From NCBI GenBank assembly GCA_019096065.1, contig JAGUCH010000002.1, positions 5,096,501 through 5,160,500 of the forward strand: a DNA stretch of 64,000 bases, given 5' to 3'. The notes under the pieces were generated by a model, which did no database searches, was not told the origin of the DNA, and saw only the letters and a program-made list of their open reading frames with translations. How positions within the stretch are numbered: position 1 is the first letter of the stretch; every line of letters begins with the position of its first letter. The position numbers were made by a program, and so were the translations under genes. Shown piece by piece: positions 6,069 through 34,292 of this stretch. The stretch is from Paracyclopina nana (taxonomy: Eukaryota; Arthropoda; Copepoda; Cyclopoida; Cyclopettidae).

Positions 6069-9000
6069 ATGACTTGGGGCTTTGTGGTGTGCGGCCCCAA
6101 CGAGGCGCTCGTCGTGTCGGGTAGGACCATTTCATCGCATCAATTATTAAAGCAACGACAATTGTTGATTTCTGTATACAGGATGCTGCCATCGAAAGCC
6201 TCTTCTCGTCCCTGGAGGCCGGGCCTTTGTCTGGCCCGGGATCCAGCATGTGCAAAGGTATCAACACTATCACGCATTATTAAAAGGACCATTTATAAAT
6301 GAAGGGTGGGTTCCATAAATAGCGAATTGCCAATAAGCTATGTATAGATACTATTATGCGTCCCTTGGGGAGAATTGGGGCAAAGTTTGTGCTATAAAGT
6401 ACTGCATCACGCTAGGATCTCGTTGAATGTGATGACGCTCAAGGTGTCCACGAACCATGTCAATACCGTCGAGGGAGTCCCCATATCCGTCACGGGGATT
6501 GCTCAGGTGATCACATAATGCAGGATGTTCAGCGACATTTCCTCGTGTCTTTTGCACAGCTTTCAGCATTTCTTTTCTTTGGGTTTTTTTCGTGCCGTAG
6601 AATGAGACAACTTAATTGATTGGCTTTTTCTCCATTCTCCTGGCGCTTCACCTTTTTTAGCGTATACCCCTTTTATTTTGGTGTCATATCGATGTTGATG
6701 CTTCCATAAGACACATATTGTGACGAACACACTCAACATTTCAATTACACACAAAATGGTGGTTTGCAACTATACTGCACTTATTGTATACGGAACCCAA
6801 GGTGGTGGAAATCCGGGCCATTAAACAACCTACCACCGCACCACTTTGAACAGTTAATGATTTTTATGTTGCCATACAAAGTCTAAACAAAAGAAGGTCA
6901 GAGCGTGCTCTACCGTGGGTGATCTGCTTAAAAATATGGAGGCCGCAAATAGGTTTTGATATGATATGAGATTGCATAGACGGAACCCGCCCTGATCATA
7001 AAGGAACATGCATTATTATAGCAAAGAGTGGGTTTGATCATAGACACGTGCTAGTCTTCCCATATCAATTGTGTACAGAAAAATATGCTTAATCGTTTTT
7101 CGATCTCATTAGGTTGCGCTTGAACACCATGACACTTCAGGTGACGAGCAATAACGTTTATTCCGCCCAAGGTGTAGCCATCTCGGTGACGGGAATCGCT
7201 CAGGTACAACACACATTCTCACATTAGTACATAGGTACTGCAAGTAGTGTTTCAGTATAGTCTACTTGGTGCTTTTTATCATTTGTGGTGGATTTGTCAG
7301 GGTGCTAATTTGCCAACCCACTATTGATGGTGCTAGCAAAAGTCTTAGCCAGCTGATTAGATTAACTGGGAAAGGCGCTACCAGATAAACTATTCGTATA
7401 CATCCAAAACAGATGCGAGGACTTTTTTGCGCTTCTTTGCACTGGTTTAAAAAACGAACGGAGGCAAACTCACCTCTAGCACCAAAATGGCTTGATTAGC
7501 AAAAAGCATCGATGAAGTGAGCAGGGAAGTTTTTCCCAGTTTGAAATGCTAATTGAGATTTGTTTTTTAACCTCGCCTCATCATTAGTCATATTATTATA
7601 AGCCATATGCGCGCGACCTTAGCAGGTTGAGTCATTAATTACAAGCAAGATTTGTGGTTTTTCAACTTTTTTACATGCCATCCCGAATAGGCTATCTGGC
7701 GTTTTTGAGATGTTTTCCCGATTTGTCAGCAGCATAATTAAGGCCCACAGCTGCCAAGTTTGAATCAAGGTCATGATCAAATCGTGAAAGACTCCCTGAT
7801 CGCTCGATTTGTAGCTTGGGTAGCTGCGTAGGTAATAATCTGAATTAGAAATTGGGAAAATGGAAGTCAAGCAGCAGTGTAATCGTGATCACAATCATTT
7901 CGGGGTCACGTCTCGTTGAGAGATTCCAATCTGGAGATTGGCCTTGTCAGCATCGACTCGGCTTGACATCTTCACACCAAAAACAGCTGGACCACGATGA
8001 CACTTTTGAGTTTTGCATGACACTATTTTGGTTGACTATCCACCTACTTATTCGTTTACCTTTGCACCTCTATATGTCCTACGTATGCATGCATGCGCGC
8101 CAGCCCCTAATTACAGAAAAGACTATGTATATGTAAGCACCCCACCCACCCACGCAAATGATGTTGAAACACACTCGCACACATTTCGCAACTGCTTGCT
8201 TGCCAATTACCACATATATACGTAACACCGCAAGCCAAAGGCTTTTTATTCGGGAAAAAGAGCGCATGTCCTTGGCACTGATCCAGCCAAGGAAACCTTC
8301 TTACTTTTTTCCACTTGTCACAGCCAAACTAAGTAGCGACTTATATAATTGATGATGATCATTTTAGGTCAAAATCCAAGGGCAAAACGAGGAAATGCTA
8401 TTGGCCGCCTGTGAGCAGTTTCTGAGCAAAACCGAGGAGCAAATCCAACAAGTAGCATTAGAGACTCTGGAGGGCCATCAAAGGGCCATCATGGGATCGA
8501 TGACAGTGGAGGTAAGAAGAAGAACTTGCTTTTATTTCCGTCACGTCTTGACGCATTTTGCTGCGCGCGCTATACCCTGCACAGCTATGCAGACGTGACC
8601 TTTTTATGCCCCATAGTTGCTGTGTGCTTGAATGCACGCGTGAGATTGCGTTGGATCCTCCTTTTCCTGATGAGAAAAGATCTGACCTTTTGGCATTTTT
8701 CCGCCATCTATTATTGAGCTGGCGTCAAAATTCAAATATTTTGGTGGTAGAACGGCAAGGGAAAAAAATGCCTTCTTCCACTACCTATTTTTGTATTCAC
8801 AGTGGTGTCTTTGTGGGCTCTGCAGCATAGCTCGAAGGTTATCAATGCCAAAGAACACAATACAGTTTTTCTTTGACATTCGATATTTGCCACTCCCGCG
8901 CTTTGCTTGGGTGGTCAAAAGATGGAAGGTACGTGTACTATGTGTGTGCTCTTAAGACCAATAATTGTCGACGCGCCCTTTGGCTCGCATTCTAGTAGTG

Positions 9001-12000
9001 AAAATTGCTATGGGCACTTGATTGCAGCCGGTGGCAATTAGGATCATCGCGAATGGACATTACTAGTGTGCTACAAATCAAAAATGGATGTCATGAACAG
9101 CAGGGAAAGCTTTCACAACATTTGTATTCAGCTTGCACCCCTATATGCTTCGCATAAAGGAGCACCCCTGCTCTGGTGTATAAGGGGAAGCCAGAAAAGT
9201 AGCACATTGAAGGCTTACCTGCAAAATAGAGACGAGAAAAGCATGAGAAGGGTGACCAACAACGTTTAAAAAAGAAACCATACACATAATAAAGCAGCCC
9301 CCCTCACAGTAACTGTGCGGTAAATGGAGCTGCTTTATAATATCGCCCTTTATAGGAGCAAAATGTGGAATTTGGCGGAATTTCGAAAAATGCTTGGCAA
9401 ACTTCCTCGTGGTAGTAGTATATCCGTTACACTGCATGTATCATCTCATGACGTGAGACAAAGAAGCGATCGGCGCAATAAAAATCATATGTGCAAAGAT
9501 CAAAGCTGGAAAAAGCAATGATATGAGATCCGAGGTCGTATTCATCGCCGCACCGCAAATAATGCGCTGCTTGCGTGTCGTTCGCCAGAGTTTTTCTCGA
9601 TGTGCGAACAAAACTTTTTTCCCTCAGAGAACAAAGTTTGGCGTTGTCGACACAAGCTTGTACTGTTCATCGGCCACAAGAAACAATGCCCCTCAAATGT
9701 CATGCTTCCGCACTTTGTGATTTGGCAACACAAATAATGATAATTTATCCTGCAAAACCCCAGTAGCAGCAATTACTTGGTAGGTTCGCGTGTTGTTCGT
9801 TTTGCATCCCGACATGCAGCAGACAAATGGCTCGGTGGAAGAAGACTGAGAAAATGCAATAAAGCCCTCTAACGTAATTTGCAATTTGCCATCAGTTCAT
9901 GGTATTCATGCAGCCGGGTAATTGCACAAAGAACCAAGATATGGGCCTAAAAATATGCCAAAAATACTACCACGTACCACATGCAGGAAGGGGCGTGTTG
10001 TGTTGTTCATACGAAGCACACACTACGTATATGTTGCTCATGTCGACATTTATTGATCGATGTGAGCACGTTTTTGAGGCAGAACGACGCAAGCTGTGAT
10101 CAGGGACCATTTGCATAGTCTTTCGTCATTTTTCTCAATACGAGGCATATTAAATTAGAGCCCATCTTTTGTTTGGCAGATATCGCAAGGTCTCGCTGCA
10201 GCAGAATTCGGCAATTTGCGTCACGAGATTTTTGTCGCTGCTGCTGCTGCCGAGAAACTCGTGCCATGGCCCCATTATAGTCTCATCATGACATAAGAAG
10301 ATGATGATCATCATCATCATGTTGAGCAGTTTCTAACAGCAGGTTTTTGATAGAAAATGAGAGAGCCTCGGGGGCCACCCACGAATGGTTTTTCGCCAGG
10401 AATAAAGACCCATTTTCAGGTCACTACTATTGACTCTAATGATTAACATGCGCGCGCAGACGTCTACCACAATGAATATAAGGTACAGCATGCTGAAGCA
10501 AGGTCTGATCCAGAGATGTCATGCTAGGCGCCCATTTTCTGTCATATTTGCGTCTCATCTTCGTCAAAAGATTGTTGCATCATCCTGCTAAAAGAGCCTT
10601 TCTGATTTTTTCTATACGATCATTATTATTGCTTTATTTATGGGCAATTTTCCCATTGACGCGTTGCGTGCAGGAGGCTCGTTGAAGTGACTTGCAATTA
10701 GAGTAGGGAAAAAGTCAAGCATCGTGAGCACCCAATAAAATAGAGACGCCATAATGTTCGCGCTCTTGTCACAAGTGGGTTAAATTCGCATCAAGCCCGT
10801 GCTGTGTACAGATTTTCGGGCATCACGATTTTCCCTCATGAGCTCCAATTTTTGTAACGGTGATGCGACCATCAATCCATCAGGCATTTTGATCATCTTT
10901 GGCTTCGGGCGGACATTTCTTGCTACTCGTGTGCAAAATTCGCGCGAATGCAATTTATACGATCATGCAGCCATTATGCAATGCCTATTGTCTAATTACA
11001 TCCGTTTGATGTGGACAGTCGAACGATTTACTTTCTATACATAATTTTTGCATATTTTGCGCTACTAGTATGCGATCCTAATTGGAGCGAAACGGCAAGA
11101 AATTGGACATCTCGTGCAATATTCCTTGCCAGACCTCTGGTTGTCCAATAGCAGAGAAAGTCGCGGACTTTTTTCGATTTCTTCAATAGACAAACAAAAA
11201 CGCGAAGCTTTCTCTCTCCATTCGTGTTGAGGCGAACAAGTAAACATGGAAGGTATAAGGGTAAAATCTACTGTGTAGAAGGAAAAATCACTGCGATTTT
11301 CGGTAGCGTCCGGGAGAAATGGGAGGGAAGGTATATATCCGAATCGATTGGATATGTCAGACCAGAATTGGACTCGAAACAATGATCGATTTGGATCAGT
11401 TAAGTAGGAGGGAAAAAACGAACAGTTTTCTCAGAGCGTCGCGAAGTAACCAGCTAGAACTCACATGATACATATAAGCAATTGGGAGCAACACCAGCAA
11501 AATAAATGGACGGAAGTGCGCATTTGACAGCAGCAAGCTTGTTAAATTGTACCGTTTCGAAGAAATGGCAGAAAAAGCGAGCACCAATGTCTTGCAAAGA
11601 TACCGCGATGCAGTAATTTGCTACAAATGAGAAGAGATACTAGGTGGCTACAATGATTGCACCTTAAAAGGCCATAAATATAACGCGAAATCTGTTGCAG
11701 TCGCACGATCGCCTGGCAGAAAAATACGGTCGATTGGCAGGAGAAAACTTGGCTGATTTTCTCAGCATCTTTTTATGGCACCCTTAGCAGTAGAGCAGCA
11801 TTCTTAGGTGCTGAGAGAGAGAAGACCGCAGATCATCACGTGCAGAAATTTGACAGAATCTTGTTAATGCCATATGGCAACAGGAATTTCTACTTTTTTG
11901 CTGGCATCTTGTTATTTGGGCAAGCTTCTTTCAAAGCCATGTTGCGGTCAAAGTTAGTTTCCAAATCCGCTAGAACGTGGTAAAGTTCTCACACAATATA

Positions 12001-15000
12001 CAGTATGCTATCTCATGACACAGCAGAAGAAAAGTGGCAAGAACTGCCATCTCTATTTATCAAGAAGCCAATTTACTGCTAATGATGAGCAAACGATCCG
12101 AGCAAAAAAGCTTCTGGCGCGCGGCTTTGGAGTAATTAAAGCACATTTAAGCATGGTGGCCTTCAAGCAGTGCAGTAATGAACTCCTCAAAACGACTGCT
12201 AAGAAATGGCACGAAAAGACACATACCTTTTTTCCCAAGAGCTATTCTAAGTGGCTATACTTTGTATACGAACTAGAGCGTTTCTCGAGCCCTACTATCC
12301 AGTAGGTACGAGGGAAATAGCATAATTAGTTACAAATGACAAATGAACTTTCAATAAATGGCCTGAGGATCGATTCCATGAGATAATATAGTGCATATAG
12401 ATTTTTTGCGCGAGCTAACTCACAGCTGGATCAGAAGGGATCTGATTAGACCGGGTGGTCCTATAGTGTATCTCTAAGGCATATAAAAACAGTTTGTATT
12501 GCCTTTCTGGAACGAGATCCATTTATTGATCCAACTGCGATCTCTATGCAGCACACCAAGACTACTTGCGCAGCGTCAAGGTTTCTGCTTGCGCGATGAA
12601 AGGCAGCTAAAACGCGCACGACAATTAAAGCATAAAAACCGTAGCATCACGAGGAGGAGCCGACAATCGTCATTTTCCGCTTCCAAAAGAAAGAATCCAA
12701 CCTTTCTTCATTACGAGACATTTTGTCCATGCATCCATTATCCTGCATAAATTGCTCCTCGAGCCTCGCAGCTTTTATTGTGCGCTCGTGAGCGCGCATA
12801 TTTAATGCTTATTATAAAAAAAATACGCGCGAATTCGCACACTATGGCCGCGAGTGGGCCAAAGTAATTGGCAGAAAATCTGTTTCAAGGCAGAAAGTCC
12901 CCATAGTGCATCATTCCCTTCCTCATTCGCATTGTTAGTTTCTAGCGGGTTGTCTTCTATGTACTGCAATATGTGTACTAGGTTGCATTTTAGCTTGCTC
13001 TTGAAATAGCCGACATCTAAGTGGTTCATTAGGTCGAAGAGTAATTTCAAGGCTGCGTCTTTGACGCGCGCATATTTTTTAAAGCAACCCAAGTGTTTAT
13101 TGACTACAAACCTTGCACTAACTAGAAGTATACATATGCGAAAGGTATTTCTGTTTTAATTGGCCTTCGGTATGGGATGATGCACTCATCGTATTCGCAC
13201 CGCGGCTCTTTTTCCAACCTAACAAATGCCATGAAGAATCAATTACAATGGGCAGAAGTAGCTCGTTTTGAGCACTGAATTTTCCGCTGGCTTGATTTTG
13301 AATGCCGTGATTTCATTGAAGGTTAGGGGGCTCGTTTCATCACACTTATTTGGGGCTTTAATTAACCTCTCACAGTTTTAAGCGCGTCAACGTAGTAGAT
13401 TGCACTACAATATTTTTTGGCCACCCAAGAAGGCGTTTTTTTACTTCTTATAGCGCTGTGACGCAATGCCAATCAACTTATAGCGTCGGGCCTTGAATAT
13501 CGCGTATTATTATCTGTACGGGCAGACCGAAATGATCCACCACCACGTGCCATCTCAGCAGCAACTTTTTGGCCCTAGCCAACGAGATAATCACCGCAAG
13601 AGATTCCTATCTATTGATTGGCTTTAACAAAAGATCCATAAACAGATATTATTGACGAGGGAGCAGAGGAGAGTGATTGTACAAATACCAGATTTTGAAT
13701 ATTTCGCCTGGAAATTCGGACTCGGTAATTAAAAGCTGTCAAGAAGCTCAGCAGAGCTGTTTGAGGTGTCAAGGCTGAAATGCATCGAAAGACCATCGTG
13801 ATCAAGACTGCGCTGCATTTAAAAAGGGAAGCCAATTATCAGTTAGGCTTGACCTCTAGCATGATGGGATCACGAAAAAATTCAAAGATCCTCATGGCCA
13901 TAAATCAGTGAGAGCATTAATTGTGCAGACTGTACAAAAGACGAGATGATGGATGAGACAAACTCAAAAGCGCCAAGCGGTTTTCTCTTACGAACAAAAG
14001 TGAATACGTACATACACTATGCTCCGCTGGCTGGCCGGGGCAAATCATCAACGGAAGGCAAATTACGGACCTAATTCATCTTGCGGATGAAAAAACCAAT
14101 TTGCTCGCTAGAAAAATATTTTACATCAGGAGTAGCGCTGCATTTCTCCCGAAATCTGTGGATGTAATAAGGCGCATGCACTCCTACTATTCTACGCTGC
14201 AAAGATGTCACTGGTTGTGCAAGATCTTCTTCTTTTGTGCTCAGATTTAAAATCGATCACCTGGCTCCCCATGAAATTTCTTGCTAGTGATGAACGAAAG
14301 TGAAAAGGTGGAACATTTTTTGCCGCACAGCCAAACTCTTTTACATTACTATGCAGCACCTGATCCTCTTGCGTCGTGGTGAAGGTGGCGCTAGACAAAG
14401 GTCATGGTAGTATTTACAAATGAAAAAAACACAGATAACTGTATATGCTCGTAAATAGGATTGGTTTCACCTATAGCTTCTTTGGGGCAATTACGGAGAT
14501 TGGTGGTCGGAAATGGTCAGATGACAAAAACGTGATATCGTTTCAGCACTTTTGATCCCACTGCAGTAACCAGCACCTCAGTAATGATATCGTGAGAAGT
14601 CCATATCCGCCGAGCCGTTTTTCTTAAAGGCCACGAAATGACGCACCTTTGAGAAATTCTACCCCGCTGTGGCCTTAAAATTGCCCTGACCACGCTGAAA
14701 ATTCCATATCAGGACCTTCCAGTATTGCATGACACCGTCATGGGATATATACAGTTTAAATTGTCAATATAAAAAGATTTCAGTTCTCGCGCGGCCCAAA
14801 TTGGGATATATTTCGAAATAAGTCCTGCTTATACGTACAGTAGATGAGGGATATTTGACGTGCATTTAAAAAAGCAGAACTATATGTGGCGGCTGGGAAA
14901 ATTGAGGAAGAATCCCTTATGTATACGCACTACAACATACAGTGTAGTATGTTGCGCAATCTTGTCAAGTAATTGATTGGACAAGTCAGTTCCGGACACA

Positions 15001-18000
15001 ATTCTTTTTGTCCTTGCGTGGAAATGTGGAGCAGTAATGAATCACGAATCAACCTTGTGTGGGAACAGCCCCAATAAGGGACAAAGTCTTCAAGAGATGA
15101 CACTGTAATGTGAAACTCGTTTTTCCCACAACAATGTAGATCATGATGATGAAACCGCAACTACTGCTCCTATTGCAGCGACTCCTCTGCCTCTTTAACT
15201 GATCTGGGTCATGAAAATGGAGGAGACAAACTACAAGGAGACTTTTTGTCGAAATAATAAGAAAGAAAGTTGGGAACAGCGATGACAGCTCGAGATTCCC
15301 ATCATCATCATCTTGTTCTTCTTCTTCTTCATGAGAATGGGCGAAAATTTCCACTATCATGATCATTTCCGTGATGACCTTTCCCACTACATATGCCAAT
15401 TTTAGTAGGCACATATTTATATACTGTAGTACGCCGAAAAAATAATAAAATTAATGAACAATTGTTTGCGAACGCGCATGATTTATAGATCTCTGGGCAC
15501 GAAGGTCATCATCATTCAGCTAGCTGCTGCTGCAGCCCGCGGGGCTGAATTAGGGCCAAGAAAATCATCTCGGTCAACAACACTGTATTGCAATTTCCAC
15601 CTGAATGATATCATCAGATTCACTGACCTTCGGCCAAAATCCTCGATAATTGCCATTCACAGTCGATGCCCATTAGTTCGCAGCTTCCATAGCAAAAGTA
15701 CAACTATGGTGGCAAAATGACTGCTCAAAATCACCGTGGGTGGACTTTTGATCATTATCCACTACTCTGTGCCACTACTGCAGTCTATCAGGGTGGATCA
15801 TTGGGGATGATGGAAATTTGGGAGGACACATGAACGTGCAATAAGTCCACCACCAACATCTTGAAAATACTGAATCTATGATCAGAGCTCATGATCTTCT
15901 CTATATGGAAATGAAGGCGCTCAATCAAATCCCGTCGAGCTTGGATTGAGAATCGATCATTAGCGCGAACAACATCCCGATTTGGAGCGATTTGGCACTC
16001 TGGTCCGCTTAATTTAGTCGCCATTTATGCAAAACCATCATTGAGTTTGCTTATGGCCATCAATCAAAAAACGCGAGGGAAGACCGAAGACCGGTAAACA
16101 CCTTGGAAACGGAGCGACAATTTTCGGCGCCATTACAAGCATTGGCGTCTTCACACTATTATGATTTTGGGCACATCTTCAGCAACAAGGAAGAGCAAAT
16201 AATGATGATTCTTTTTACTACTACTCCACTGTCACAATTGATCGAAAGAAGGTTGGAAAATAGACCGGATATTGAATCAAGCGTCCGGCTCGGGGCCAGC
16301 AATTAAACCCTCACACCATTGTTTTTGTTTATTTTCCCGCGCGCTCCTTTAAATGATCAACTTCCGCCAAATTGTGTGGGGTGATTTCTGCGTTCCTTGG
16401 GTCAAAACTATGCTGCCATCGATCTTGCGTTGACAATGGTCTCAGATGACCATGAGCTGATAAAATCATCAAGATCGTCGCCATAGAGCGCACACACATG
16501 TCTCAATTTTGCATCTTTGTTGCGCGTACATGCCTTTAAAAGGCTTAATGAAGTTTTTGCCCAATTTGTTGGTCGCTGGCGGAGAAGAAGGCCTTAAAAA
16601 GTGCGTGGGCGGGAGACACCTCTGATGAAGAATAGCAAGTTTGGGAGGAGAACGTGGGATGAGCCAGGATAATACTTAGTGGCAAAAAAATAGCCAAGAA
16701 TGAACAACGGTTTTATCTTGGCAGCCTTTGCGGTCTTCACCAATGACTATTGAAGACTAGCAGGAAATCTTGCCTCACTATTTGACGGCACCATGATTGC
16801 TCTTTCTTAGACATGATCATCATCATCATGTAAGTCTATCGATGCATCTGGAGAAAGTACTTTACAGCGGAATTGGCCGATCATTTTGAAATTACGCGGA
16901 AGAAGGCAGCTCGCAATTGGCGACCACATATGGCAAAAACCTGTTTTTTCACTTTAAACGACGTCTTATCAGGAAAATCGTTGATCGACGGCCGTGCAAA
17001 ATCTTTGATTTGTGATAATACTCAGCTGCTGCTGCTGAGCCTCTAGTGCTGGCAGTCTTTAAGCTAAGCTCAAGCTGTACTTACTTTGACAATTATTGCT
17101 AGTTGCAAATTGTCAAGTTGTTTATTGTAGAGCCTCGCACAATTTTTGCCAAACATTGACAAACAACCCTTGACTTTTGAATGTAATTTGTCATGTAAGA
17201 TGTGGATTCAAGATTGTACGTGCTAAATGCAGCAGCTGGATATACCATTTTCTAATTCGCAGGTGTTGTTCCCAGTTAGTTCTCCGGATTTTTTGCTTCA
17301 TAATACATATTATTGACAGTTGGTCTTCACAATTGTAACAATAATTTCATTGTAGTCATTGCCTGAGATGGAACAGTTAGGCTCATTCAATAGACACATT
17401 GAACAGTAGTGGCATTATGTTACTGGGAAATCTTACTCCATTTTTTATACATTTAGATGTCTGCGTGCACAGTATGCCTACTAGGCTCTGTTGCTGCGAC
17501 CAATTTTCGGGGGGCAAGCTACAGGTCAACAGCGTCTCATTGCTAAGGTCACAGAGGAAGTGTTACAGATATCCGGGCAACTTGGAACAAGAGCATATTT
17601 GGGAGGAGTCCTGTGCCATTTTTTACGCCACTAATTTTGGTACATCCATCACAAAATGTGGCTGGCAACGCTATTTATTGTGCCTCCGTGGACTTTGATA
17701 GTATGAGCGCGGTTTCTCATATAAACACTTTGCGCGCTGATTAGCATTCCTTCAGTGTGTGTGCTATGCTAATGCTTTCAAATTGACATTGCTGGCAAGG
17801 CCACAAAAATATGACTAATTATGCAGGGAGTCGTGACTTTGAAAGGACAATTTCTGAATTTCCTGATGTCTTTTTTTCAAAGTGCTTATTTAGTTTGTTT
17901 GATCTCCTGAGGCGAAGCAGTAAATCTTTAAAGCGTGGACTAATTCGCAAGGTTGCACTGAAGCAAATAGTCTTTTTCTCACGAGCGAAATACAGGCAAA

Positions 18001-21000
18001 AATGGCCCTATAATATCTTAACTATTGTTCGACTGACTTCCTGATGTACTTGCTTGATCCATTTTTCCAAATTGACCTTTTTACTGTCATGACGATGAAC
18101 TTTTTACATATGCCCTTGCAATAAATAAGCTCATCCCTTTTATAGATTCTGAGCTGTAATGAAATACCACCACCATAAAAAAGATCATCTTGAGCCCATG
18201 ATTTATGGTAGTGTCGATTGAATTTGATACAGCTCGCCTTTTTTCCGACTTCGCCAAGATTTATTGGTCCTCTAATTGGCGACTGATATTTCCGTAAAGG
18301 GTGCTCAATTAAAGATGAAACTTTACAGCGAGTTTTCACGTTATGCTGTTTGCCTGCCTCGCGAGTGAATGGCATATTTCTAATCAAAGTGGCTTACCTG
18401 CAGTGACCCAAGGAGATGAGATGCCCATTCTGGGCAATCTAAGCATGCTTGACAATGGCCTTTCAACCTTGTTGACCGAAAAGGTTCGGTGTAATCTCGT
18501 CATCGTTGAGCTTCACATTATTATTTCACTTCACATAATTTGCCTCATGAACTACTGCATGTAGTAATATTATGTATATGTGAGCATGTAGGAGGTGGGA
18601 CCTCTCAGACGTCCCGCAGACGACTGAACCTTCTTATTACATCGGCGCTTTAAAGCAAGAAGCGCACTAAAACCAGCGCCGCGCTGGGGGGAGTTGATGT
18701 GGACAGCATGGCCCGAAAGGCATGATATCAATTTGCTGGTAGCTTGTTGCCAAAAAACCTGATATAGTTTTGACGAGGTGTGAAGAATGATGAATTAACC
18801 TTTTCAAAAGATGCTCTTATCTCAGTTTTAAATGCTACTGCCACGTAACTTGTGCTTGAGTTTTTTACCAGCCCAAACTGACATTTTACCGATTATTCAG
18901 AGTTTTTGTGTTCTACATCTTTATAGCCGTCACTCTGCCCAAGCTTGAATGTGCATGGGAATGTCTTAATAAGCCACAATTATTGGGACCAGGTTGAGAA
19001 AATTGCATCACATGTTAAGTTTTCTAATTCCTTTCCCATGTCAACCCTGGAAGAGGAGATCACTCTTGACATCACTTGTCTTCACTAACATTTCACCTTT
19101 TCTGTGATAGGCCTCGTTAATGCGCTTCGACATAAAACACAAAGTGCATCATCTGCTCTCTCAAACACTGGATTAATTACTTTGTTTTGAAAAGTAGAAA
19201 AAGGACCAACTAGAATGCACCTTGGCTTTGATGATGCAAAGATGAGGCCAATTTAGGGCTGAAATGCAAAAGCCATCACAATGAAGATGAAGGGATCGGA
19301 GCATGCCTACATGGCATCTGGCTATAGCAATATTGTGCAGTATACGTAGTACATCATCAGGGAGATTTTTGCAACCTTTACCCTCTATTATCTTCATATA
19401 CTGGCCGCATTGACCGCGGCCGTCCACCAATACACGCATTTTGTTCTAGCCGCGAATTTAAGCCAGGAAAACTATGTGGCATAGCGCATGCCCAACTCCA
19501 TTTTTGCACACATTAGAGCCCCCTTAGTGTCATGAAACCGATGCTTATCTCTGAAATTCAAATCACGACAGCACTCGGCCAAATATGAAGCCAATATTGC
19601 ACCATAACAGTGCCTAAAATGCAGGATCAGCTAGCCTTGACCTCGAAAGGGGTGTAAAAACAATTGGTTTGTCACAACCTACTTGTTCTCACGGATTCCG
19701 AGCCGGGATATTTGACATGCTTCTAATCTAGCCTTGGATTAACTTTTGGAATTGTTTGTGGGAAAATGGACATGTATCTAATTATCTTCTAACTGACAAA
19801 TAGGTGGAGAAATTTCAGCTTTTTTTTTTGGGAACACTTTAATTACACACACTGTTGCTGGAGTTGTTGCTCCTAGGAAATCACATGTACACCATCTGTT
19901 CAACAGCAGCAGAAACCATTTCAGAATGAAAATAAGGCCAGAAAGGTTCAATAGGCAGAATGACTGATGATGCCACACTTTAGTACACCGAAGAGCTTTT
20001 TCACAAAGCATCTTCCAAGATATGACAACAAAGCAATTTTTAAGCATTTTCCAATATATACCTATAACCTAGTATTTAGGCCAACGTGCAAAGAGTAGCA
20101 GTAATTACGAGAGCAATGCTACTTATATTAAAGTTGATAAGGCACTTAATTTACGAATGCATTTTCCTGCAATTATGCACTCAATTACGACACTTTCACA
20201 CGCCATATTTTATGGTTTCAATTGTAGCCGCGCCAACAATAGGGCTTAGTATCTATGTTAATAGCCAAGGCGTCTCCAATTTCTCTGTTTCTCTTTGCTA
20301 AGTGGTCATTTGTTAAGCTTTGGATCCTGCTGTAACATTTCGTCGCTTCAAAAGCGAACGACTGCAAAAGATGGGACGCGAGAGAGATTTTTTGAAGCAC
20401 TTTAAAAGATTTGTAGCCATATGTTATGGAAGATGTTCCTTCATAACTTCTCGCGTGATTGCATTCCATATAGCGCATATACGTTACTGCAACCACGCTA
20501 AAAAGAACAGCAATAACGCAAACAAAGAGAAATTCTCGTTCAAAAGCAGCAATTGGATTTCTTGACCCCGCTTTATTTGAAGGCGAATCATTTGTTCACA
20601 AGAATTAAGAGGGAGCAATTTAGGTTTCTCACGAGAAATGGCCGCTACCATAAATATGAGAGGTGTTGCTGCTGGTGTTGAGATTTTTTGCTCCAATCTG
20701 GTAGTTTGATAAAGCTGCCTTTTTTGTTGATAATAGCTCAGCAAAAACAGAGATGAAGGCATCAATTATGTGGGAAAATTGGTAAAGGTGCATTTAACAT
20801 TCACAGGCTCATGAGACCGAAAATTATCTTGATAATAAACATGTACATACGCGCGCGATGTGATATGCACGTTGAGCGGTTCCTGGCATAATTAAGGGAA
20901 TCTATCGTGCTGTAGTCTTGGTTTCGGAGGGAAAACTTAAAATTACAAATGCCATTAAGGCAAACAATTTACACACCAAAGATTGGAAAGATAGTGTTTT

Positions 21001-23809
21001 TTCTTTTTAAAAACTTGCTGGCCAAGCTGCTATCTCAACTTTGGATCGCCATTCAAAGCACAAACCGAAACTGAAAGTCGAAGATGATGCAGATAAATAT
21101 TGCATTGTCAACTTTTTGGAATGTTTTCGAAAACAGTGACTCGGCATCTGCTAGTTGCGGTGTGGTAGTAGGGGCATCACAGGCTTCAAAGTGAGACATG
21201 CATAATTGTTATTAGACACACAGATGATCCTATCTCGCGTATTAAAAGCCATCAAGTTTACAGCCCTTTCAATTCTGCTTTACAAAACCACTTCACTTTA
21301 TGCCTATCCATAAAATTTTCCACGTCGCCGCGCTCATAGTACAGTGGAAGCCGCATGCTTATTTGATGCTGAAGCCAATTTCTTGAAGAAAAAAGAGGAA
21401 GTATAGTGTATTAAATTCGTCATTGTAAAAAAGGCCATAAAAATCCAGCAGAAAAAGGTGCTTGGCCCCCTGCAGGCCTGACAGATTTCCATGTTTTCTG
21501 GGCTCAGAGCAATACTACTATACTACAGAAATGGTCGGTTTTCAATATTGTCTACGTTCCATTTCGTCCGGAAGCGAGTGATTTTCAGACTTACTTTGAT
21601 GGATGGCATTTTGGTTTTGACCGCGTGCTGCTTGAGAACAATTTCAATTCAGTGCGAAAAAGCAGTGCAACAAATGTCGCCATGGGCACATCAACTTCGG
21701 CCGGAGTTTCCACAACATGTGTGAAATGATGGCCTAAAGGAGCCATCAAGTACTGCTATCCCATAGCACTCACTAGTGTATGAAGTACATTCAAATATGG
21801 CCATGCAAAAAAAAAAATGATTTTTCAGTCGGAAGCCTTGGGATTTATTAATTGACTCGCGCATCCTCCCACGAAAATCATCGGCAGGTTGTGCTAAAAG
21901 ATATGTTTATAGCTCGACGCGTCATCCATAAATCAGGCGCGCGCGAGACTAATTTTCGCTTTCCCATCATAATTTAGCATGCTTGCACAACTGATTGCTG
22001 TCAATTTAATGGCACACATGCAAATTGAAAGTGCCGTCATCATAAAGTTGTCCAATTCGTTTTTTTGTATCGGTGGCATGGTATTTGCAGGGCCGACAGA
22101 CAACCTCAAATATCCTGTCATACAAGTTATTAGCTGACGTGCGCCGAGAGAAGTTTATAAGGGGTGAAACTACCAAATTCATAGGAAAAGTGATTAGGAT
22201 TCATTACGCCAGCTCAATTATGCCTTATAAGCACAACCGGTGGCACCGCACTATGCGTGGAGATTGTTGGCAACCACGTCCAGCTACCAGATCTTCTTTC
22301 GTAAATTGCCTTTTAAACGAGAGAGAAAAAAGCTATTATAGTATGCGAGCCATCGTCATCTCAAATATCTGGAGAAGAAGTTTCACTTTTTCCTTCACGC
22401 AACCAACGTCTGTCAACTCATCATCCCCAATTACTTTTCCTTTCAGGAAATCTACAAGGATCGGAAAAAGTTCTCCAAGCAAGTATTTGAGGTTGCATCG
22501 TCGGATCTGGTCAACATGGGCATCACTGTCGTTTCCTACACATTGAAAGACATCAGAGATGACGAGGTAAGAACCACATTACTGTGACATGAGAATCAGG
22601 AAACGCGAGTGCGGGCTGAGCATGCATATTGCTCCGCAAAGATAAACCAACAGATAATTCTACGCATATCCCTCCTTTTTTAGAGCATGACAAAAGCAGC
22701 GCAATTTTGGCTCAATCAATTTGCCGAGAAGTAAATCATGTTCAAGAGCATTAACTATAATATGTTGCCAGCAACAATTTTAACGTAGCATATTTATGGG
22801 ACGTGACAACAATTCATTACATGTGTTGTAATATTTTATTTGCAGGGCTACCTTAAAGCATTGGGAATGGCAAGGACAGCTGAAGTGAAACGCGATGCTC
22901 GGATAGGCGAGGCTGAGGCCAAGCGCGATGCTCAGATAAAAGAAGCTATAGCAGAGGAGGAGAGGATGGCTGCGAGACTCCTCAACGACGCGGAAATCGC
23001 CAAGAGCAAACGCGACTTCGAACTGAAAAAGGCCGCGTATGACGTGGAAGTGCAAACGAAGAAGGCCGAGGCTGAGCTCGCGTATGAGCTGCAAGCTGCG
23101 AAAACGAAGCAAAGGATCAAGGACGAGCAAATGCAGATCAAAGTGGTGGAGCGCACTCAAGAGATCCTGGTACAGGAGCAAGAAATCATGAGGCGCGAGC
23201 GCGAGCTCGACTCCACCGTGCGGAGGCCAGCCGAGGCCGAAAAATTCAGGCTCGAAAAACTGGCCGAGGCCACTCGCAATCGCATGATCATGGAGGCTGA
23301 GGCTGACGCCGAGGCCGAAATCCTGCGAGGCGAAGCTGAAGCCTTCGCCATCGAGGCCAAGGCCAAAGCTGAGGCCGAAAAGATGGCCAAGAAGGCCGAC
23401 GCCTGGAAGGAGTACAAAGAAGCTGCCATGTTGGATATGATGCTTGACGCCATGCCAAAGGTACCATTGCGAATTCATCTGGATTTTTTGCTGTTGTCAC
23501 TTATTTCCCTTGCAGATCGCTGCTGAAATCGCTGCCCCCTTGTCACAGGCTAAGAAAATCACAATGGTTACCGACGGAACTGGCGAAATTGGAGCTGCCA
23601 AGCTCACCAACGAGGTGCTCATGATCATGGCTAATGTGCCGCTGTCAGTGAAAAATATGACCGGCGTCGACATCACTCAACAACTCTCGCGTTCTAGCGG
23701 CCTCACCGGATCTAGAGTAAGGGTCAACTTAAAGAAAACCCTGTTGTCCAATTAATCTCTTCTTCTTTTACTGCAGTCTGTGTCATTGGCATCGATGCGA
23801 ACGCATTAG
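6069..23809 (+). CDS. Flo1: Flotillin-1
   Basis: Membrane-microdomain scaffold of the SPFH/flotillin family. Coding exons: 6069-6120, 6182-6257, exon 3 as either 6416-6506 or 7113-7203, then 8368-8511, 22447-22566, 22846-23460, 23516-23716 and 23777-23809. All junctions are GT-AG and phase-consistent, giving about 430 residues as in other flotillin-1 proteins. The start [18 protein letters not shown] is the family signature. The SPFH core reads [17 protein letters not shown] and [18 protein letters not shown]. Exon 22846-23460 encodes the Glu-Ala-rich coiled coil ([31 protein letters not shown]). Adjacent cysteines in exon 2 (GCCHRKP) are likely acylation sites by analogy with the family. The last exon adds only ten residues; an alternative is read-through of the 23717 donor to a stop at 23755. 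Intron 4 is 13.9 kb, far larger than any other intron here. Confidence 0.95.
6416..6506 (+). other. Flo1: Flotillin-1 alternative exon 3a
   Basis: A 91-nt exon with acceptor CACGCTAG and donor CAG|GTGATC. Spliced after exon 2 it reads [19 protein letters not shown] followed by [12 protein letters not shown], which fits the SPFH domain. It has the same length and phase as exon 3b 606 nt downstream and is 19/31 identical to it by hand alignment. Neither including both nor skipping both preserves the frame, since 91 and 182 are not multiples of three. The polypyrimidine tract is weak. Confidence 0.85.
7113..7203 (+). other. Flo1: Flotillin-1 alternative exon 3b
   Basis: A 91-nt exon with acceptor TCTCATTAG and donor CAG|GTACAA. 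It reads [19 protein letters not shown] followed by [12 protein letters not shown]. It occupies the same SPFH-domain segment as exon 3a. Its middle (NTMTLQV..VYSAQG) looks closer to the usual flotillin-1 form, while 3a keeps RISLN and GVPIS. Transcript data are needed to say which form dominates. Confidence 0.9.
8512..22446 (+). other. 13.9-kb flotillin-1 intron 4, no coding seen
   Basis: Only short, unconserved reading frames occur, on both strands. I see no nested gene, tRNA or obvious transposon. The sequence is mixed-complexity, with small ATGATGATCATCAT-type palindromic repeats near 10300, 15300 and 16810. The heptamer CCATAAA/TTTATGG is frequent (12 sites found by eye: 10637, 11672, 11772, 13636, 13898, 18173, 18202, 20208, 20648, 21308, 21435, 21926). 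Such sites are bound by Caudal/Abd-B-class homeodomains, so intronic enhancers are possible. Confidence 0.5.
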
Positions 23810-32963: not shown

Positions 32964-34292
32964 ATGGAAGCCATTGTGTCGCCGGTAAAGTGTTCATCTA
33001 CTCTATACCCTGTTCGAAGATGGCTCAAGATTTTCCAACTTCTTGGCGGATTGCCTTTGAGGATAGAAAATATGGAAGCCACCATATTCAAAAACTCTAC
33101 GCTTTATAGCGCCATTTTTTTCATGAAAATGATGTTCATCTTTGCGAGCTCCGTGTTCTCTCAGGTGATCGTTAATTTTGTCATCCTTGGCTACGATGAG
33201 TTCGAGAAGGCCATCAAAGACCTGAAAATTACTCAGACAGAGGTCATATCCTATTACGTTACCATCGTTCCGCAATTGTGCGGTTTGATTATCAATTTTT
33301 ACATACTCAAGCGTTTTGGCCCAGATCTGACCAATTTTTGCCAAACCATGAAAGCATTCGTTTCAGTCCCTGTGGATACGGGTATGCTAAGCATTTGCTA
33401 ATCATCATAATTTTGCGATGATACATACATATTGCGAATCTTAGATTACTTGGAAAAGTACACGAGAAGAAACAAGAGGAGAGTTGTGAAATACATCATC
33501 GTGAGCGGCTTTGGAATCGTTGCTGCTGGTATCACGCAAATCTATGTCAACTCTGGCATGGAAGATGCCTTTGGGCTTAAGGTTTTCGTGATTGCTCTCC
33601 AAATCACCGTGAATACGTTCGTTCAAATTCCAGCTTCCACCCTTGTTGTCCACTTGATGGTCTGCCAATCCATCATTCACTTGACCGCGTTAGCGAGCTC
33701 TTTGCATGACGTCGCAAAGGACAAAGCTAATTTTTACGGCCATGAGAAGCGGCAAAAAAGCAAGGCCGAGGATACCGCTAAGTGGATGATCGAGTCCACC
33801 TTCCAACTTTGCGAGTTGATCACGCGAGCGAACGCCACTTTTGGAAAGCTGATTTTCGTGGAGGTGGGCATCCTCATGATTAACATTGTCATCACCGTTT
33901 TCCTCGCGTCGAGCTTGATCACGTCATTCAAATTGGACGTTTTCCCCAACGCGCTGTTTTTCAACGGCATCAATCAAGTCTGTTCCGCTACCGTGTTTCT
34001 CTTGAGGATGTACGGGCTCACATCCACTGGAGAGGCTTTGGCAGCCAAGCTATTGGAGCTGCGAGTGGATCTCAAGCTTTTTGGAATCAGTCACTTCAAC
34101 GACATGAATGACCAATCAATTTTTGCGTTCGACGCAATGCTCGATCGCTTGCGAGGCTTAGATGCGCCCATTCGACCCTTGAATGGATTCAACTTGAACC
34201 TGTCATCAGCCTTGACTGTTTTGGGCTTACTAATCACCTACATCGTCGTACTGTTTCAATTCAAAGCAGACGAATTAGCCAATAGTAATTAG
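32964..34292 (+). CDS. Gustatory receptor (7tm_7 family)
   Basis: Two exons, 32964-33381 and 33445-34292, join in phase 1 (ACG G|GTATGC...CTTAG|AT TAC), giving 421 residues, a typical length. It is a chemoreceptor ion channel of the insect Gr family in the sensory-neuron membrane. About seven hydrophobic segments are visible, among them YSAIFFMKMMFIFASSVF, VEVGILMINIVITVFLASSL and SSALTVLGLLITYIVVLFQF. The C-terminal TYIVVLFQF matches the TYxxxxxQF signature of the family, and the final intron position is typical of the group. The ligand cannot be told. No second receptor gene lies in the window, so it is not part of a visible tandem cluster. Its 3' flank holds a hAT-type MITE about 110 nt away. 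Confidence 0.9.

Follow-up and report, generated by a model that had tools for sequence, protein, structure and literature searches.

The plus strand of the window (the whole 64,000-nt stretch of DNA under analysis) carries a complete and intact flotillin-1 gene, with its exons lying between positions 6069 and 23809. Coding exon 1 (6069..6120), which starts with the ATG at 6069, and exon 2 (6182..6257; 3′ border AAG|gtatca) are followed by two copies of exon 3, referred to here as 3a (6416..6506) and 3b (7113..7203), which are separated by an intron of 606 nt (6507..7112). The remainder of the coding region is made up of exon 4 (8368..8511), exon 5 (22447..22566), exon 6 (22846..23460), exon 7 (23516..23716) and exon 8 (23777..23809), the last of which includes the stop codon and was placed on the basis of splice borders and frame only. 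Exons 4 and 5 are separated by a 13.9-kb intron (8512-22446), in which the list of ORFs of 130 aa and more contains nothing save one ORF overlapping exon 5. At positions 32964-34292 of the window, two long open frames resemble, by eye, pieces of a gustatory receptor gene of the insect type.

The products predicted with either copy of exon 3 contain the SPFH/Band_7 and flotillin C-terminal domains, with scores above the Pfam cut-offs in both isoforms (Band_7, 91.1 and 88.3 bits; Flot, 33.7 bits each). The first 121 residues scored 158 bits against PDB FLOT1 chains, compared to 104 bits against FLOT2 chains, and the gene was assigned to FLOT1 rather than FLOT2.

Anatomy of the exon 3 pair

An earlier note had described the two exon 3 copies as mutually exclusive, and the anatomy given there was exact. 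Each copy is 91 nt long (6416-6506 and 7113-7203), is preceded by AG, begins with a G that completes an AG|G arginine codon, and ends in CAG|GT (donors CAG|gtgatc in 3a and CAG|gtacaa in 3b), while the neighboring junctions lie at the end of exon 2 (6257) and the start of exon 4 (8368). All borders of 3a and 3b are of the GT-AG type. The encoded segments share 19 of 31 residues, and the exons themselves 58 of 91 nucleotides. The 12 differing residues (segment positions 2, 3, 6, 10, 12, 13, 15, 17, 18, 19, 20 and 23) were fairly described as clustered in the middle, and the copies are identical over positions 24-31. The frame logic was also borne out: a transcript with 3a alone or 3b alone reads through 444 codons including the stop, giving a flotillin of 443 residues, while the skipping of both copies leads to a stop at codon 62 and the inclusion of both to a stop at codon 87.

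The likeness of 3a and 3b is not due to chance, since none of 200 shuffles reached their local alignment score and both copies were matched in tblastn with human FLOT1 (44.7 bits each; residues 2-118 of the query agree with a PDB chain). A profile of exon 3, which itself contained these segments, detected the copies with E values of 5e-20 and 1e-19. No third copy was found in the window, where the next profile match had an E value of 1.2, in a search of open pieces of at least 15 residues that a badly broken copy could escape. The pair, which is at or under the similarity limit of the general repeat finder, was not reported by that program.

The copies share the features by which tandem exons are recognized, namely equal length (91/91 nt), the same phase and homologous sequence. 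The sequence-level features examined all fit a mutually exclusive exon pair in flotillin-1, which is how the locus is best interpreted; the exclusive use of the copies is itself predicted from the sequence. It is very probable that 3a and 3b are kept as a mutually exclusive pair, with one copy per mRNA and two isoforms of 443 residues.

Age of the pair and flotillin paralogs in the genome

The genome assembly searched comprises 92 Mb in 10 contigs. Close to each end of contig C1 there are arrays of TTAGG, the usual telomere repeat of arthropods, which fit an arthropod origin; the control pattern gave 0. Among the matches listed, the genome contains at least three FLOT1-like and at least three FLOT2-like loci, made up of the window gene and the paralog loci L017, L018, L019, L020 and L021. 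Vertebrates usually have one FLOT1 and one FLOT2. Several of the paralog loci have few introns in the SPFH part. The two other FLOT1 loci have exons 1-3 fused and keep the boundary that follows exon 3 (AQ|V); in the FLOT2 locus on contig C6, an intron interrupts the homologous segment internally, not at its start.

With the exon 3 profile, the window yielded two copies and the five paralog loci one apiece. No second copy was detected in these five, the next matches having E values of 0.55 and above (again with open pieces of at least 15 residues, so that a badly broken copy could escape). In the FLOT1 paralog on contig C3 (L018, minus strand, ∼5802-5750), the intron before the exon starting with VISYTLKDIKD contains a possible decayed copy of this exon start: behind an AG, it reads VVSYVILDIKD and then a stop, with 24 of 45 nucleotides identical. 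No relative was confirmed in viral contigs (7 pattern matches) or in contigs of prokaryote genomes (40).

The 33 nucleotide differences between 3a and 3b (of 91) are distributed over the first, second and third codon positions as 10, 4 and 19 (30 positions each), and affect 12 codons synonymously and 12 by replacement. The proportion of differing sites was 0.76 for synonymous (pS) and 0.24 for nonsynonymous changes (pN; Fisher P 2.9e-5). Estimates of dN ranged from 0.26 to 0.31 (four methods) and those of dS from 1.6 to 4.9 (three methods), with the NG86 value undefined through saturation. The synonymous sites of the pair are near saturation and the replacement sites are constrained, which shows purifying selection between the two. 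With dS near saturation on an exon of 90 nt, no date is given for the duplication.

The introns flanking the two copies are no more alike than shuffled sequences (the upstream score was reached by 27 of 200 shuffles and the downstream score by 121 of 200). Residues matching human FLOT1 number 21/31 in 3a and 20/31 in 3b, and those matching the C3 paralog 21 of 31 in each; both copies are as near to these two proteins as to one another (19/31). Given this equal closeness, neither copy looks decayed. The near symmetry toward the outgroups argues for constraint on both 3a and 3b, which the pairwise pS/pN test cannot apportion between them. From the near-saturated synonymous sites, the shuffle-like introns and the equal match to human FLOT1, we infer that flotillin-1 exon 3 was duplicated in tandem long ago.

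Splice signals and the proposed choice between 3a and 3b

Pyrimidines occupy 9 of 18 acceptor positions in 3a, the lowest count of the nine exon starts compared, 14 of 18 in 3b, and 10-15 in the other acceptors, with 10 in exon 4. The donors of both copies lack a G at +5, and so do those of exons 2 and 6, meaning that this is no peculiarity of the pair. The better pyrimidine tract of 3b suggests that 3b may be the default exon and 3a the regulated one, and the weak acceptor of 3a could mean that 3a is rarely used. In the case of U2AF1, U2AF35a is reportedly expressed at a higher level despite the weaker signals of exon 3. As far as the available text on U2AF1 goes, exon 3 has the less favorable splice signals of its pair, a caution against deducing usage from how strong the signals are.

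The low pyrimidine count of 3a (9/18 vs 14/18 in 3b), its donor with a base other than G at +5, and the greater closeness of the C1 paralog to 3b (19/31) than to 3a (16/31) could also point to a fossil exon, 3a being the likelier candidate, in which the frame has stayed open but useful splicing has been lost, with 3b being constitutive. The donor of 3b is, however, just as imperfect, and exon 4 has an acceptor with scarcely more pyrimidines (10/18). Moreover, the long drift implied by near-saturated synonymous sites should not have left an identity of 21/31 to human FLOT1, nor frame, length, phase and both splice borders intact; neglect may rather look like the candidate decayed copy of the C3 paralog, with its in-frame stop and 24/45 nucleotide identity. 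A fossil 3a is, on balance, unlikely.

Another possibility is that 3a and 3b are both in use without strict exclusion, and that transcripts carrying the two together, or none, are a means of turning the gene off via nonsense-mediated decay. The spacing of 606 nt should permit the splicing of both, all borders are GT-AG, and early stops arise in both-in and both-out transcripts. Nothing speaks positively for such use, which we rate as very unlikely and which would be compatible with mutually exclusive splicing as an added layer. An assembly artefact or mis-joined haplotypes, for which no support was found, can be practically dismissed, as 33 of 91 nucleotides differ between the copies, which are spaced by 606 nt and have unrelated flanks within a single 17.5-Mb contig.

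Under mutually exclusive splicing, both 3a and 3b would be spliced in vivo, and each mRNA would carry one or the other, giving two 443-residue isoforms of flotillin-1 distinguished by the opening part of SPFH2. Exclusion would be enforced at least by the frame: transcripts with both copies or neither contain early stops and would for that reason be expected to undergo nonsense-mediated decay. On top of the frame, the choice would probably be regulated, with 3b as the likely default and 3a in need of help. Steric exclusion between the copies is unlikely because of their 606-nt spacing.

Competing RNA structures were also considered as the means of choosing the exon, and this idea is unsupported: the longest complementary stems, those of the 606-nt intron included, were within the range of 15 single-base shuffles. 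The energies of three intron-intron duplexes were equalled by 5, 35 and 1 of 40 shuffles, in a calculation with whole-intron duplexes, which are unrealistic.

Position of the segment in the protein and the FLOT2 counterpart

Exon 3 encodes residues 43-73 of the window flotillin-1. According to the available part of PMC11775717, SPFH1 of FLOT1 comprises residues 1-43 and SPFH2 residues 43-160, and only SPFH1 is inserted into the membrane leaflet. By these limits, exon 3 opens SPFH2. The position "near the membrane" proposed in the earlier note is therefore roughly right, in that the segment adjoins the inserted SPFH1, but the segment itself is not in the inserted part. The likely effect of exchanging 3a and 3b would be to alter contacts among neighboring subunits, or with partners, at the SPFH rim of flotillin cages, while the membrane anchor and the coiled-coil wall would remain unchanged.

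The statement that no flotillin with this arrangement had been described needs correction. Two FLOT2 chains of the PDB, 9l3g_a and 9bq2_A, which we take to be human, present two versions of the homologous segment (human FLOT2 residues 44-74): over 402 aligned residues, their differences are confined to this segment, in which 21 of 31 residues are identical. The human FLOT2 sequence matches 9l3g_a over 428/428 residues. This implies, as far as protein sequences can indicate, that FLOT2 has the same kind of exon choice, with two putative alternative exons. A FLOT2 model of residues 1-402 was obtained from HEK293 cells (PMC11260169), and the main text of that paper contains none of the words isoform, splice and exon.

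The FLOT2 pair resembles the window pair in consisting of two variants of the same 31-residue stretch, and differs from it in belonging to the other paralog, in stemming from a separate duplication and in that its exons are deduced from protein. In a tree of exon 3 sequences, the FLOT1 and FLOT2 segments were split with support of 98/98; the window pair fell on the FLOT1 side and the human pair on the FLOT2 side. Since each pair falls within its own paralog, the two duplications were independent events, and a shared ancestry of the pairs was rejected. Six variable positions are common to both pairs (of 12 and 10), an overlap that is not significant (P 0.10).

Human FLOT1 exon 4 corresponds to exon 3 of the window gene in its 3′ boundary (the following exon begins at residue 71) and in a length of 1 mod 3, but is single-copy, so far as the accessible text of PMC5187529 tells. 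The length derived from the same text is 91 nt when calculated from a clone with a 17-bp deletion, and 85 nt when calculated from the residue counts of an insertion clone. In the available parts of other reports, FLOT2 is listed under exon skipping (PMC9205547), among genes with splice events (PMC10135431) and in gene-ontology tables of Qki-dependent splicing (PMC6429586), and Drosophila Flo-2 is credited with eight transcripts (PMC3578937). A fly counterpart of the exon pair may exist in Flo-2. Among arthropods, the crab gene JX228176 consists of nine exons (PMC4506021).

Mutually exclusive tandem exons are well known as a kind, and the flotillin-1 pair adds a case. In the portions of the literature covered, U2AF1 exons 3/Ab, the Dscam clusters and insect Mhc are likewise built of tandem homologous exons; there, one exon is used at a time, as is predicted for 3a and 3b. 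Among the matches listed in the literature searched, which were available in part, no flotillin appeared among the mutually exclusive tandem-exon cases, and no flotillin exon pair was found. FLOT1 and FLOT2 are not named in the main texts of PMC9741552 and PMC5740500, whose supplements may list them, and a flotillin exon pair is absent from the available portions of PMC1891103, PMC11260169, PMC3228551, PMC6712619, PMC7561204, PMC11775717, PMC4506021 and PMC5187529.

We give an even chance to the view that the exon opening SPFH2 is a recurrent site of duplication in flotillins, having been duplicated independently in a FLOT1 gene of an arthropod-like lineage and in human FLOT2, and that mixed versions in the 44-subunit cage would tune the rim and not the wall or the anchor. 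Flotillin cages are visible by cryo-EM, and what tunes them is less clear. Pairs of SPFH2 variants at the same place in FLOT1 and, separately, in FLOT2 would mark a small unit that evolution has made switchable, and 3a and 3b would offer a small swap with which to probe binding at the SPFH rim or the packing of subunits.
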